A stretch of 64,000 nt of DNA, from assembly GCF_000377205.1 (NCBI RefSeq), contig NZ_KB897906.1, positions 92,272-156,271 of the forward strand, written 5' to 3'. The notes below the pieces were generated by a model, which worked only from the letters and a program-made list of their open reading frames with translations, did not search any database and was not told the DNA's origin. Each line of letters begins with the position of its first letter. Position 1 is the first letter of the stretch. This stretch comes from Thioalkalivibrio sp. ALJ3. Lineage in GTDB: Bacteria; Pseudomonadota; Gammaproteobacteria; Ectothiorhodospirales; Ectothiorhodospiraceae. A program made the translations under genes and the position numbers. Shown here piece by piece: positions 47,124 to 53,777 of this stretch.

Positions 47124-47876
47124 ATGTCGACACCCCGTCTTGCCGTGATCGGCGGCACCGGCCTGACCCAGCTGAAATCCCTGGAAATCACCCGCAGGCA
47201 GGTGATGCACACTCCCTATGGAGAGCCTTCTGGGCCATTGGTGTTCGGCCGTCTGAATGATACGGAAATTGTCTTTTTGCCACGTCACGGGGCCCGCCAC
47301 ACGATTCCGCCGCATCAGGTGAATTACCGGGCTAACATCTGGGCGCTGAAGAATGCCGGGGTCGACAACGTAATCGCCGTGGCCGCGGTAGGCGGGATCA
47401 CGGAAGGCATGAAGCCGGGCATGATTGCCATCCCCGATCAGATCATTGACTACACCTGGTCGCGCGCCAATACCTTTTTCGAGGGGGGCGATCTCGATGC
47501 CGTCACCCATATCGACATGACCTGGCCTTACAACCAGGGTGTCCGGGAGACACTGCTGAATGCGATTGACGATCTCCGCATCGAGGCCGCGGACCGGGGA
47601 ACGTATGGCGCGACCCAGGGCCCGCGCCTGGAGACGGCGGCCGAAATCGATCGTATGGCAAGGGATGGCTGCGATCTGGTCGGCATGACGGGGATGCCCG
47701 AGACGGCGCTTGCCCGCGAGCTGGACCTCAACTACGCCTGCTGTGCCGTCATCGCGAATTGGGCGGCGGGACGTACCGAAGGCGAGATCACCATGGACGA
47801 GATCGGGCGCAATCTGGATGAGGGCATGGCACGGGTGAAGGACGTGCTCATACACGTGATCGAGACGCTCTCTTGA
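47124..47876 (+). CDS. mtnP: S-methyl-5'-thioinosine (or -adenosine) phosphorylase
   Basis: This 250-residue PNP/MTAP family enzyme splits the methylthionucleoside with phosphate, giving methylthioribose 1-phosphate and the purine. It has IGGTGLTQL at the start, the phosphate-binding PRHG, HQVNYRANIWALK, TQGPRLET and VGMTGMPETALARELDL. It resembles the Pseudomonas aeruginosa methylthioinosine phosphorylase from end to end, and N212 (ANWAAG) stands where adenine-specific enzymes have aspartate, which favours a 6-oxopurine. With hpt directly upstream, recycling of hypoxanthine fits. It connects to MtnA at 18.3 kb. Confidence 0.88.
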   Translation: MSTPRLAVIGGTGLTQLKSLEITRRQVMHTPYGEPSGPLVFGRLNDTEIVFLPRHGARHTIPPHQVNYRANIWALKNAGVDNVIAVAAVGGITEGMKPGMIAIPDQIIDYTWSRANTFFEGGDLDAVTHIDMTWPYNQGVRETLLNAIDDLRIEAADRGTYGATQGPRLETAAEIDRMARDGCDLVGMTGMPETALARELDLNYACCAVIANWAAGRTEGEITMDEIGRNLDEGMARVKDVLIHVIETLS

Positions 47877-47940
47877 CCATTATTACGGGGGAGAGGCCGG
47901 GCGCCTGGCCGAGCACGCAACCCCTTGTTCCATGACTTAA

Positions 47941-47956
47941 CATAATATGTATTATG
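47941..47956. promoter_or_regulatory. AT-rich inverted repeat, candidate operator
   Basis: CATAATA, two bases, TATTATG: a perfect 7-2-7 inverted repeat in GC-rich surroundings, between the converging ends of mtnP and the 95-residue gene. The loop is too short for a hairpin, so a protein-binding site is more likely than a terminator. No gene starts next to it. Confidence 0.3.
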
Positions 47957-47989
47957 CGTCATGTATGGGTGGGCCTAGAAGTCCGATCG

Positions 47990-48277
47990 CTATCGGATCC
48001 TGAGATTCATCGCGCTGTTCAGGCCGTGGCTACGTGAACGCGTGGCATGCCCGTTCTTGGTCAGGACCAGGTCCAGATACCCGGGACCGCTAAGCTGTAC
48101 GACCCGGCAGTCCACCCCGATACCTTCGAACTCCACTTCCAGTGGCACGACTCCCTCGAACTCCACTTCCTCGACCTCGTGCGTCCTGGTGACTGTGCAC
48201 GTAATCGAGTATGCGGTGCCCTCGGGCCCGGAGGCTTGCAGAGTAATACGCGATTCCTTGGGCGATGATGTCGACAT
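47990..48277 (-). CDS. Hypothetical 95-residue beta-rich protein
   Basis: I do not recognise this gene with certainty. The protein has no signal peptide or membrane helix. It reads as alternating polar and hydrophobic strands (RITLQASG, AYSITCTVTR, VPLEVEFEGIGVDCRVVQL, YLDLVLTK) with two cysteines (27 and 57), so a small beta-sandwich is likely. GAGG lies about ten bases before the ATG. It lies about 480 bases downstream of the CsgD-like regulator on the same strand, in a gene-poor, more AT-rich segment. That the frame is real is supported by its protein-like composition; it could still be spurious. Confidence 0.6.
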   Translation of the reverse strand: MSTSSPKESRITLQASGPEGTAYSITCTVTRTHEVEEVEFEGVVPLEVEFEGIGVDCRVVQLSGPGYLDLVLTKNGHATRSRSHGLNSAMNLRIR

Positions 48278-48755
48278 CGCATGAGTACCTCAGGCCAAGG
48301 GCAATCCGACCAGGATCGCCATGAACGTGTCTCGCTATGGGGAGCCACAGGGAGTCACGGGGATCCTTGAACCGGTGCATCCGCGAAAGAGTACCGACCG
48401 GCCTCGCCTGCCAGGCTCGATAGTCCTGAGAGTCCGACGCGCGATGATGCGTAGCGGCTGGATCCAGAGTGCAGTATGGCGGCGGAACCCTGGGTGGACA
48501 TCAGAATAACGGGTGGTTTTTCGGGAGAGGTTTGTCGGTCGTTATCACGTGACAAGTATTAGCCGACTGATTGTGTAGCGATGGTGTATGACGGCACTCG
48601 GCAATACGTTGTACGTGTCTCCGTCGCAGGCGCTTGGTGGTATAGCACTGATCCTGCTTCGTTACGGCGTTACACACGGCCGAAGCGCGCACCCATGCCA
48701 AACACGGGGCGCGCATACCACAAGGTAGCTGCAGGGAACGGCCGACGCCCAGGGT
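48278..48755. other. 478-bp stretch without a supported gene
   Basis: Only short frames with TTG starts or unprotein-like composition are present (for example one of 66 codons at 48355-48555, minus). I see no tRNA, known riboswitch core, insertion sequence end or long repeat. It may hold the promoter of the 95-residue gene, but no clear -10/-35 pair was found. Confidence 0.4.
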
Positions 48756-49457
48756 CTAGACGGCGCGAGCCTCCGCCCGGCGTCGTCGCCACATAACCTG
48801 CGGAGGGGGTGCTCCCAGGTGGTCCTTGGCCCAATTGATCGCCTGGGTGCGATTCTTGACCTCGATCTTCCTGAAGATGTTGTACAGGTGAGACTTGACC
48901 GTATGCTCACTGATGAACAGCTGCTTCGCGATATTCATGTTGGTCTCGCCCGAGCCCAGCATCGCCAGGATTTCCAGTTCGCGTTGAGTCAGCCCACAGG
49001 CCGGGCGGTAGGTGTTCGTGCGCTGTTGGCGGTACAACCTCACCAGTCGGGTCATCAGGTGGCGGGACATCCAGAAGTCTCCGTTCAGGAGGCAGACAAC
49101 GCCCTTGCACAAGAGGTCAAGCTGATCGGTCTTGTAGAAAATCCCCTGCAGATACAACACGTCGAGCAGGCGCAGTGCTTCGTCTTCACTGGGAATGTTG
49201 AACCCTGCGAAGACGGTTTTGGCACCATCGGCAACGGCTTGCTGGACGTGACCAATATCACGTTCGTCCAGTGAACTGGCATCAAAAAGAGCGAGGCTGT
49301 AGTCCCTGAGTGTTTGCGAGACCCTTGGAGATCCGGGCTCTAGCCCTGTTACGGCGCACCCGGTTTTTTCGGACACATATTCGATGAACAACGCCGACTG
49401 CGGTGACGCTGGCGTCACGATCAGTACTTCTCCCAAATCATCGTTTAGATCACTCAT
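48756..49457 (-). CDS. CsgD-like LuxR-family transcriptional regulator
   Basis: This 233-residue regulator has an N-terminal receiver-like domain (about 10-135) and a C-terminal LuxR helix-turn-helix (about 160-225: LTQRELEILAMLGSG, NMNIAKQLFISEHTVKSHLYNIFRKI, VKNRTQAINWA). The HTH and the linker (YLQGIFYKTDQLDLLCKG, GDFWMSRHL) look like E. coli CsgD, the master regulator of curli and biofilm matrix, more than NarL. A phosphorylation pocket is not clearly complete, as in CsgD. The ATG at 49457 has AGGTG six bases upstream; upstream extension to 49520 was not used. No csgBA or cellulose genes are in the window. Confidence 0.82.
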   Translation of the reverse strand: MSDLNDDLGEVLIVTPASPQSALFIEYVSEKTGCAVTGLEPGSPRVSQTLRDYSLALFDASSLDERDIGHVQQAVADGAKTVFAGFNIPSEDEALRLLDVLYLQGIFYKTDQLDLLCKGVVCLLNGDFWMSRHLMTRLVRLYRQQRTNTYRPACGLTQRELEILAMLGSGETNMNIAKQLFISEHTVKSHLYNIFRKIEVKNRTQAINWAKDHLGAPPPQVMWRRRRAEARAV

Positions 49458-49491
49458 AACGTCACCTGCTCTCCGTGTTTTCGCAGTTACT

Positions 49492-49520
49492 ATTGGAAAG
49501 ACGAGGCACGCCTGAGTCAA
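49492..49520 (-). promoter_or_regulatory. Probable sigma-70 promoter of the CsgD-like gene
   Basis: On the minus strand TTGACT (49520-49515), 17 bases, TCCAAT (49497-49492). It lies 35 bases before the regulator's ATG. The whole gap to bioA (49458-49700) is more AT-rich than its surroundings. Confidence 0.5.
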
Positions 49521-49700
49521 CGGACTAGATTTTCCAGACTTACCCCAGATGCCCTTACGATGGGCGTAATACTGATCTGGTGTGCATGATTAATGGAAAG
49601 TATATAGGCCCTGACTAGCGGCCAGTCAAGCACGGATGGATGAAAGTAATGCGACAGGTACGAAGAATCCGAAATGCGTGCGCGGGCGCACATATTTGAG

Positions 49701-51062
49701 TTAGATGCCGTCCGTTGCTCGATCGATCCCCTCGCCCATGACGTCAACGAGAAAATCGATCTGCTCCGGCGTAATCACATAAGGGGGCATCAGATAGGAG
49801 ACATTGCCCAGTGGCCGTAAAAGCGCACCTCGGCTAAGGCCATGTCGGTAAATTGTCAGACCCCGGCGTTCCTGCCATGGGTAGGGTTTTCGGGTTTGTT
49901 TGTCCTGAATCAGCTCGATGGCGGCGATCATGCCGTGCTGGCGGACGTCGGCGACGTGGGGGTGGTCGGCCAGTGGGGCGAGTCGCCTGGCCATATGTTC
50001 GGACAGCGCCTTGTTCCGTTCCAGTACGGGGTCGGATGAAAAAATATCAAGCGTGGCCAGTGCCGCACGACAGGCCAAAGGATTACCTGTGTAGGAATGT
50101 GAGTGTAGAAACATATTGAGTTTCTCATAATCGTCGTAAAAGGCGTTGTAGATCTCTTCTGATGTCACAACGGCGGCCATCGGCAGATAGCCGCCGGTCA
50201 GGCCCTTTGAAAGGCACATAAAATCCGGGACGATCGGTCCCTGCTCACAGGCGAACATGGTCCCGGTGCGTCCGAATCCCACCGCGATCTCGTCGGCGAT
50301 CAGGTGCACGCCATGGCGGTCACAGGCGTCCCGAAGCAAGCGCAGGTATTCAGGGTCATACATGCGCATGTGGCCCGCACACTGGACCAGGGGCTCCACG
50401 ATTACGGCACAGACCTCATCCGCGTGTTCGGCGAGTGCGGCCTCCATGTGGGCGAACTGTCGCCGTGCCACGTCGGCACAGCTCTCCCCTGCTTCGCGCT
50501 CGTAGCAGTCCGGTGCGGGGACAGTGATCACATCCAGCATCAGGGGCTTGTAGGTGGCGCTGTAGAGTGGCACATCGCTGACCGAGAGTGCCCCCAGGGT
50601 CTCGCCGTGGTAGCTGTTGGACAGGCGGATGAATCGAGTCTTCTCGCCCCGGCCGGTGTTGAGCCAGTAGTGGAAGCTCATCTTGAGCGCCACCTCCACC
50701 CCGGCACTGCCATTGTCCGCCAGGAAGACCCGGTCGAGCCCTTCGGGGGTAAGGTCGATCAGCCGTTCGCACAGCTCCACGACAGGTTCATGCGTACAGC
50801 CCGCCAGGATCACGTGCTCGAGCTGGTCCAGCTGGTCGCGAACGGCGGCGTTGATTCGCGGGTTGGCATGGCCGAACAGGTTGACCCACCAGGAGCTGAT
50901 GGCATCGAGGTATCGATTGCCGTCGAAGTCGTACAACCAGACGCCTTCCCCGCGCTGGATCGGGAGCAACGGCAGGGTCCCCTCCTCTCCGTAATCCTTC
51001 ATCTGGGTACAGGGGTGCCAGAGGGCACGCAGGTCCCGGCGTTTGAGTTGTTCGTTATCCAT
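49701..51062 (-). CDS. bioA: Adenosylmethionine-8-amino-7-oxononanoate aminotransferase
   Basis: BioA makes 7,8-diaminopelargonate using S-adenosylmethionine as amino donor, the antepenultimate step of biotin synthesis. The 453-residue class III aminotransferase has the WHPCTQM start typical of BioA, the AISSWWVNLFGHANP motif, DEIAVGFGRTG and the PLP lysine K286 (LSKGLTGGYLP). The ATG at 51062 is chosen from the family start. No other bio genes are near, so it is separated from bioB, bioF and bioD. Confidence 0.94.
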   Translation of the reverse strand: MDNEQLKRRDLRALWHPCTQMKDYGEEGTLPLLPIQRGEGVWLYDFDGNRYLDAISSWWVNLFGHANPRINAAVRDQLDQLEHVILAGCTHEPVVELCERLIDLTPEGLDRVFLADNGSAGVEVALKMSFHYWLNTGRGEKTRFIRLSNSYHGETLGALSVSDVPLYSATYKPLMLDVITVPAPDCYEREAGESCADVARRQFAHMEAALAEHADEVCAVIVEPLVQCAGHMRMYDPEYLRLLRDACDRHGVHLIADEIAVGFGRTGTMFACEQGPIVPDFMCLSKGLTGGYLPMAAVVTSEEIYNAFYDDYEKLNMFLHSHSYTGNPLACRAALATLDIFSSDPVLERNKALSEHMARRLAPLADHPHVADVRQHGMIAAIELIQDKQTRKPYPWQERRGLTIYRHGLSRGALLRPLGNVSYLMPPYVITPEQIDFLVDVMGEGIDRATDGI

Positions 51063-51240
51063 GTGGTGGACTCTCGGGCGCTGTGGCCCCTTTGCGCTTG
51101 AAAGGCGCCAGAGGGGCGAAGTTTGCAATGCGCGGAAAGTAGCAGGGGGCCCCTGACCGGACAAGGCATCCCGCGAGCGCCTCGGGATTCAGCCTGCCCG
51201 CCCTTCTGAGGTACTCTTTGCTACCGGCCAGGAGGATCGC

Positions 51241-52799: not shown

Positions 52800-53777
52800 T
52801 CAGCGTCTCCCCAGCGCCAGTGCGATCGCCTCGCTGCGGAGCGCGGGGCTCAGGTTGGCGCTATTCTGGCGCTGCCATTCCAGCGACTGCTGCGCCAGCC
52901 ACGCCAGCCGACGTGCGCCACGCGCGCGGGCGAAGTCCAGCAGTTGGGTGCGCGGGAATTGTTCGCCGAAGGCATCCAGTTGCCCCACCAGCAACAGCCG
53001 CTGCGCCGACAACAGCAGGGCCTGAAGGCGCGGGAACAAGCGTTCCGGCACGCTGCGCTGAAGTGCGGCAGCGCTGGAATGCAGGTTGGATGCGTCCAGC
53101 AGGTTTGTCAGGATCTGACGGTCGGTTTCCCAGGCCTCCAGGGCCGCCGCATCGGTCAGGATTTCCCGTGCCAGCAACGGACGGTTGAGGCTTGCGGCAT
53201 AGGCCTCCGCCACGCGTTCCGGCTGGTCGGTGTCCGCCGCGAGCCAATCGTGGACTTCGTTGATGGTGGGGCTGGCGATGTCGACTTGCTGGCAGCGGCT
53301 GCGAATGGTGGCGGGCAGACTGGCCGGCCGCGCGGCCTCGAGAAACAGAGATGCCCCGGCGGGTGGCTCTTCCAGCGTTTTGAGCAATGCGTTGGCCGCA
53401 TTCAGGTTCAGGGAGTCGGCGGGCCGGATGACCAGGGCCCGCAATGTGCCCGCCGAGCCGCTCAGGGTCAGAAACTCCGCGGCATCGCGTACGGCATCGA
53501 CCAGGATGTCCTTGCCGGGTTCGGCCGGTTCCAGCAACCTCACCTCCGGATGCACCCCCCCTTCCAGGCTGCGGCAGGCGTTGCAGTCGCCACAGCCGGG
53601 TTCGTCGCCGGATGACCGCTGGCATAACAGGCTCTGGACGACGCTGGTCGTCAACAGTGCCTTGCCGATGCCGGGGCTGCCGCTGATCAGGATCCCGCTG
53701 GGGAGGCGACCACCCCGCCCGCGTCGCACGAGCTGCTGTCTGACGGGTTCGAGCCAGGGTGGTTGTAACGGCATCAT
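52800..53777 (-). CDS. holB: DNA polymerase III subunit delta prime
   Basis: HolB is part of the clamp loader that places the beta clamp on DNA. The 325-residue protein has the P-loop-like SGSPGIGKALL (near residue 32), a zinc module with four cysteines (CQR...CGDCNAC), and the SRC sensor (RSRCQQ) of clamp loader subunits. The ATG at 53777 overlaps the tmk stop (ATGA); a second ATG follows immediately. It is translationally coupled to tmk. Confidence 0.93.
   Translation of the reverse strand: MMPLQPPWLEPVRQQLVRRGRGGRLPSGILISGSPGIGKALLTTSVVQSLLCQRSSGDEPGCGDCNACRSLEGGVHPEVRLLEPAEPGKDILVDAVRDAAEFLTLSGSAGTLRALVIRPADSLNLNAANALLKTLEEPPAGASLFLEAARPASLPATIRSRCQQVDIASPTINEVHDWLAADTDQPERVAEAYAASLNRPLLAREILTDAAALEAWETDRQILTNLLDASNLHSSAAALQRSVPERLFPRLQALLLSAQRLLLVGQLDAFGEQFPRTQLLDFARARGARRLAWLAQQSLEWQRQNSANLSPALRSEAIALALGRR

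Follow-up and report, generated by a model that had tools for sequence, protein, structure and literature searches.

Why does a Thioalkalivibrio chromosome keep a CsgD-type regulator next to a small beta-rich protein at a place where no curli genes are seen? The question is raised by a segment of the Thioalkalivibrio sp. ALJ3 genome (G000) at positions 47877-49700 of the window, by which we mean the whole stretch of 64,000 nucleotides that was analysed. A first reading of the letters alone (the sequence-only reading) had described this segment as gene-poor and low in GC and had proposed an acquired or fast-evolving locus for biofilm or surface control. The components of the locus are of known kinds and it is their combination that is unusual.

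A thinly coding segment between two conserved genes

The segment lies between two genes that are themselves convergent and conserved. To its left is a gene that we take, from its sequence, to be mtnP (47124..47876, plus strand), which has a match in 47 of 58 genomes, and to its right is an aminotransferase gene that is presumably bioA (49701..51065, minus strand), with a match in 54 of the 58. Between them stand two open reading frames, both on the minus strand, which code for the regulator and for a protein of 95 residues, and 834 of the 1824 bp (46%) are non-coding. The thin coding and the long gaps were therefore as first described, with both reading frames where they had been placed, and the low GC content was borne out as well: the segment has 56.9% GC, where equal-sized windows over 360 kb of the contig average 63.9% (sd 2.7), and a value as low is reached in 2.1% of such overlapping windows. 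The lowest values belong to the spacer before bioA (49.8%), the spacer adjoining mtnP (54.0%) and the regulator gene (56.7%), while the small reading frame (59.7%) and the gap separating the two genes (59.6%) are nearer to normal. An unusual composition, proposed as something to check by GC and codon bias together, holds for the GC of the segment but does not extend to the codons of its genes. The GC3 of the two genes is 0.72 and 0.77, close to that of mtnP (0.76) and bioA (0.74), and their codon usage is the third and fifth lowest among the 31 reading frames of the window that were taken as genes, which is within the range of that set.

The predicted dif site

The spacer adjoining mtnP carries a feature that the sequence-only reading had overlooked, a predicted XerCD recombination site of 28 bp at 47935..47962 on the minus strand; this is dif, at which a chromosome's two arms are resolved. 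It is composed of an XerC arm (ATGACGCATAA), the centre TACATA and an XerD arm (TTATGTTAAGT), where the boundaries of the arms are set by analogy with the arm consensus of the E. coli dif site. A 22-base pattern of the dif core, with up to two mismatches allowed, gave exactly one match per genome in 27 of the 30 genomes of the genus; the three genomes in which it is absent (G005, G018 and G028) are represented by assemblies that are 80, 66 and 58% complete, and the reversed pattern, used as a control, matched in none of the 30. In all 23 junctions available dif lies downstream of mtnP, and its distance to the mtnP match is 49-260 bp in 21 of them.

The position of the site also agrees with that of the replication terminus. 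Over the 360 kb of contig analysed, cumulative GC skew has its maximum at window position 53437, 5.5 kb from dif, and the polarity of the KOPS motif GGGNAGGG flips at dif, with orientations in a ratio of 32:5 to its left and 9:31 to its right. A XerD gene is present in the genome (389.5 bits compared to a cut-off of 329.6). The site has in common with the known chromosomal dif/XerCD system its length, its place at the terminus, its single copy and the KOPS polarity, and it differs in the central hexamer, which is TACATA here and TGTATA in E. coli. By its sequence and position, 47935-47962 is almost certainly the chromosomal dif. The presence of dif in the spacer beside mtnP would explain both the thin coding and the variability of this junction. 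The dif locus of Thioalkalivibrio stands out as a variable insertion site. In the literature searched, no paper treats Thioalkalivibrio together with a dif site.

Restriction of the gene pair to one clade

Close relatives of both genes are found in the same five of the 58 genomes, the window's own included, which are five of the 30 genomes of the genus. These carriers are G000, G001, G020, G025 and G029, of which G029, G025 and G001 are closely related, and among them the regulator is 91-92% and the small protein 90-93% identical. Neither gene has a close relative in the 25 other genomes of the genus or in seven further genomes of the same family, so that the pair is no family-wide feature of this place; among the genomes examined its presence is clade-specific. 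In ten close non-carriers the distance from dif to bioA is 63-139 bp in eight and 350 and 604 bp in two, and it is 6-9 kb in six more distant members of the genus. A tree of mtnP and bioA with 21 rows, built from 21 of the 23 junctions (G015 and G027, with no bioA in the stretch covered, were left out), unites the five carriers in one clade with support of 100/99, and a single change on this tree suffices to account for them.

This restriction to one clade supports the first part of the early proposal, that the locus was acquired, and the second part, that it is fast-evolving, is contradicted by the substitution rates. With N-terminal codons left out, dN/dS is 0-0.033 for the small reading frame (81 codons) and 0-0.026 for the regulator (214 codons), and values of about 0.02 indicate that both genes are real and under strong purifying selection. 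The dS of the small gene is similar to that of mtnP and bioA and the dS of the regulator is similar to that of the flanks or higher, which suggests vertical inheritance of both genes since the insertion. A regulator dS that equals or exceeds that of the flanking genes would also fit a pair that was ancestral to the genus and lost outside the clade, but the lack of any close relative in the 32 other genomes of the genus and family, together with the sufficiency of one change on the flanking-gene tree, makes such an origin improbable.

A regulator with the contact residues of VpsT

Profiles, a tree and an alignment all assign the regulator (48756..49457, minus strand) to the VpsT/CsgD type of LuxR regulators. 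Its first possible start would give 48756-49520, and the ATG at 49457, which gives a protein of 233 residues, is kept in all five carriers. Among Pfam models it matches PF00196 (GerE, the LuxR HTH) with 77 bits and PF21155 (VpsT-like_REC) with 31.1 bits at a cut-off of 27, the latter match covering only profile positions 70-124. Its score with the NCBIfam CsgD equivalog NF007505 is 138 bits, under the cut-off of 250, a cut-off that is missed also by the CsgD of another genome of the class, G398 (143 bits), despite the full curli locus there; the NarL model gives 52 bits. In the regulator tree, which takes in a GerE protein of the same genome and from which the empty rows G034, G045 and G038 were dropped, the CsgD-type rows, that of the window among them, stand apart from the NarL-type rows at 96/98, and the window's regulator groups with relatives from G398 and G306 at 92/96, with several long branches. 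The name CsgD-like had first been given with a NarL-like identity as the alternative, and the split in the tree and the difference between 138 and 52 bits agree with the name and not with the alternative.

The closest solved relative of the regulator is VpsT of Vibrio cholerae (3kln/3klo; phmmer E 6e-28). The c-di-GMP contacts of VpsT are given in PMC7288161 as K120 and W131-L132-T133-R134, with the motif K + W[F/L/M][T/S]R, and PMC3359988 states that VpsT R134A does not complement. Here these residues align to K118 and W129-M130-S131-R132, which are invariant in the five carriers, and the CsgD of an E. coli plasmid has YFSQ at the position of WMSR. The regulator therefore has in common with VpsT a receiver-like domain, a LuxR HTH and the contact residues of the motif, and it differs in its setting, as it adjoins dif and no vps genes are seen nearby. 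Its AF2 model is poor (pLDDT 49.6). As the VpsT-type contact residues and the LuxR HTH are both kept, the regulator is most likely a promoter activator that binds c-di-GMP in dimeric form, and its control by c-di-GMP, judged from these residues, is likely. Matches to GGDEF number 37 in the genome at E 1e-10, and in the mechanism that we propose c-di-GMP from many such cyclases would dimerise the regulator, which would then activate promoters.

Relatives of both genes at a curli locus

In a sample of 369 genomes of the class, the regulator has matches at E 1e-22 or better, besides the query, in G306 and G398 only, and the small protein has a match, besides the query, in G398 only (E 1.3e-5). 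In G398, a distant gammaproteobacterium, 3.7 kb separate csgD from the gene of the small protein. CsgE, CsgF, CsgG (263 bits) and two curlin-repeat proteins are coded in this interval, such that the small-protein homologue stands beside a curlin gene. The regulator of the window is 46% identical to the CsgD of G398, and the small protein is 29% identical over 99 residues to its homologue there (pairwise E 8e-6), which begins, by eye, with a signal-peptide-like stretch. The orientation of the small gene differs between the two: in G398 it converges on the csg operon, and in Thioalkalivibrio it is codirectional. These alignments show that both genes are homologous to genes found at a curli locus, a relation missed by the sequence-only reading; for the small protein the link comes from one genome, G398.

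The earlier statement that no curli genes are near the regulator was correct: there are none at the locus, and CsgG has no match at E 0.001 anywhere in the genomes of the five carriers. CsgG was the one Csg protein searched genome-wide; for the others a tblastn search covered the gaps and 360 kb of a single contig. Weak matches to the CsgG family are present in two of the 30 genomes of the genus (G005 and G015), away from csg genes. Remnants of csg genes were sought by tblastn with 13 queries (seven proteins of L201 and six of L204) on the gaps between the two genes in the five carriers. A CsgE match appeared in G020 only, with E 0.004, or 0.036 without composition correction, and 17 residues of CsgB were matched in G029, G025 and G001 with E 0.10-0.71, none reaching 0.2 without the correction; since neither is convincing without composition correction, both were judged to be chance.

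On an Aeromonas plasmid the genes follow one another in one direction as LuxR regulator, csgE, csgF, csgG, a hypothetical gene (curlin-like by eye), curlin and csgH, and the two csg operons have the same direction in Aeromonadales and Oceanospirillales, according to PMC3521004. In a one-direction order of this kind, the places of csgD and the small gene of the carriers, which are separated by a gap of 455-526 bp, correspond to the two ends of the locus. The likeness of the window locus to these curli loci (csgDEFG and csgBA in one direction) consists of a CsgD-type regulator and of a small protein with a curlin-adjacent homologue, and the difference is that csgE, F, G, B and A are lacking from it, as is a CsgG match from the genome. 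Descent of the pair from a curli locus is, on this evidence, likely. As the best explanation of the whole we lean towards a relict of a curli locus at dif, kept as an orphan regulator with a c-di-GMP signature and a small protein. The ancestor of one clade would have gained, between dif and bioA, the two outermost genes of a curli locus, with csgEFG and csgBA missing; the core csg genes would have been lost, and we infer both this loss and its timing. Several points tell against this explanation: the best-scoring relative of the regulator is in G306, where no csg gene is seen in the stretch examined, the link of the small protein comes from one genome in which its gene has another orientation, no csg remnant in the gaps was convincing, and a published survey (PMC3521004) considers horizontal transfer a minor force in the spread of curli.

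A different history, possible but rather unlikely, is that a finished cassette of two genes, an orphan regulator of the CsgD/VpsT type with its target next to it, landed beside dif and had never been in a curli locus of Thioalkalivibrio. Such a cassette would agree with the lack of convincing csg remnants in the gaps and with G306, the genome of the best-scoring relative of the regulator in the class sample (235 bits compared to 214 for G398), which has a pair of CsgD-type genes and, over the 16.5 kb examined there, no visible csg gene. It would also agree with the size of the CsgD family, which PMC3521004 describes as very large, so that CsgD by itself cannot mark curli. What weighs against it is that in G398, the one genome besides the carriers in which the small protein turned up, its gene borders a complete curli cluster, and that a hydrophobic, signal-like frame lies upstream of the small reading frame in the carriers.

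The carriers offer a natural example in which a master regulator of the curli type and an accessory gene linked to curli are held under strong selection without a curli exporter, and with it a test case for what CsgD-type regulators do after the loss of the amyloid. In the literature searched, Thioalkalivibrio and curli occur together only in work on Variovorax.

CsgD-type genes were also seen in other settings. The two in G306 (C1; L202 7506-11656) are 3 kb apart and have WMSR and WLSR, with SulP transporter-like and carbonic anhydrase-like genes (by eye) between them, and in G043 (C16; L008) a CsgD-type gene with WLPR is followed by a reading frame that by eye is CsgE-like.

The small beta-rich protein

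The 95-residue protein (47990..48277, minus strand) has no match to any family model searched, CsgC and CsgH models or known members included, no match at E 0.001 or better in BFVD, and no plasmid-borne relative by the searches made; sequence searches of solved structures gave only low-complexity-like or chance rows. AF2, given five sequences, produced five models; the best has a pLDDT of 72 and shows a sandwich of eight strands, and the other four have values of 37-52. The best fold match is MmpS5 (8em5, 9mvz; Foldseek E 0.03; Z 10.3 and 2.2 A over 84 residues with 12% identity), followed by DUF4425 (Z 9.6). The likeness to MmpS5 is that of a best fold match to a model of middling confidence, and the small protein differs in having no visible membrane anchor; such a likeness of fold implies no function.

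CsgC and CsgH, the amyloid-inhibiting chaperones, are absent among the 50 fold matches listed. What the small protein shares with them is that it is small and beta-rich and that its gene, in G398, closes a curli locus, as csgH does on the Aeromonas plasmid. Their fold has seven strands; the model, of middling confidence, has eight. Homology to CsgH was considered and rejected, as there is no sequence similarity to the Aeromonas CsgH, a protein that, although annotated as CsgH, itself falls under both Pfam cut-offs and passes NCBIfam only.

Upstream of the small reading frame, at 48278..48337 on the minus strand, the same frame reads in G000, G020, G025 and G029 as a short run of hydrophobic residues that ends in GxHA. 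It is interrupted in G000 by an in-frame stop (TGA), and the hydrophobic part lies in another frame in G001, which leaves it open in three of the five carriers. The GAGG ahead of the ATG of the small reading frame is kept in all five, so that the simplest reading, for G000 and G001 at any rate, is that translation starts at this ATG and the product is not exported. The upstream frame resembles a signal peptide that has decayed. While the homologue in G398 is apparently exported, the small protein of the window is probably cytoplasmic, with no usable signal peptide, and in the three carriers with an open frame it may be exported.

These features make the small protein a candidate for a new curli-linked protein family. 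A more far-reaching idea, which we offer as speculation with few odds in its favour, is that it represents a family of beta-sandwich proteins of curli loci, not described before, that handle amyloid in a CsgC/CsgH-like manner. Such a protein would have outlived curli in one clade, lost its export signal and come to serve in the cytoplasm as partner or output of a CsgD orthologue that reads c-di-GMP and is fixed beside dif, where the dose of a gene is at its minimum and coupled to replication termination.

Possible targets of the regulator

Alignment of the carriers reveals a conserved non-coding block at 48472..48548 (minus strand), upstream of the small reading frame, which is a candidate promoter or operator and has no Rfam match at E 1. 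If the regulator acts as proposed, its first target would probably be the small reading frame, by way of this block. Elsewhere, in the 360 kb of the contig and in two exporter stretches, L188 and L189, only partial matches of 24 bases with 4-6 mismatches to the block were found. Their number in the 360 kb is 36 at a step of 1, compared to 1-22 at a step of 4 for ten shuffled elements, and since they resemble the matches of shuffled elements we place them at chance level. No targets beyond the locus were found. Two Poly_export matches are present in all five carriers and in five of 25 other genomes (Fisher p 0.0018, or 0.026 in a close group of 15), an association that is confounded by shared ancestry. 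That the regulator has other targets among matrix or surface genes is a guess, and so is matrix polysaccharide as its wider target; control of the biofilm or the surface by the locus, as first proposed, is plausible.

A second polysaccharide-export cluster is located near a contig end of the same genome (L188 9118-16979; G000:C5), with YjbH-, Wzc-, Wzb- and Wza-like genes by eye. L188 contains three of the chance-level partial matches to the block, and one of them, 18 of 24 bases at L188 9005, is about 90 bp upstream of the first reading frame of this cluster and is at most a lead.

Variation at the dif junction

An insert that adjoins dif could be a Xer-dependent integrative element (IMEX) or its scar, and the variability of the junction across the genus would be in keeping with this, as an island of 15.7 kb in G025 and a remnant of 0.94 kb in G022 both lie between mtnP and dif. 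The search for a second site speaks against it: in the 12-kb junctions of G000, G001, G020 and G029 no site besides dif and its own palindrome agrees at 13 or more of 20 positions, a threshold that a more decayed site would escape, and G025 has one 13-of-20 site at about 40 bp from dif. Furthermore, the two genes match no phage or mobile family, their matches of this sort being generic helix-turn-helix ones, and we give an origin by IMEX little credence.

Other genes occupy the junction in several relatives. In G009 (C1; L145), 6.3 kb between dif and bioA include MoxR ATPase-, vWA-, rhodanese- and DsbA-like genes (by eye). The island of G025 (C2; L134 1610-17320) codes for a Ser/Thr kinase and, by eye, a second one, two PP2C phosphatases, FHA proteins, a vWA-like protein, a MotA/ExbB-type protein and an M4 peptidase-FHA fusion, and the XerD arm of the dif site in this genome is TTATGTAAA. 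In G022 (C4; L135 890-1830) the 0.94 kb contain pieces of the vWA-like gene of the G025 island and reach dif; this genome probably once had the island, which was later deleted up to dif.
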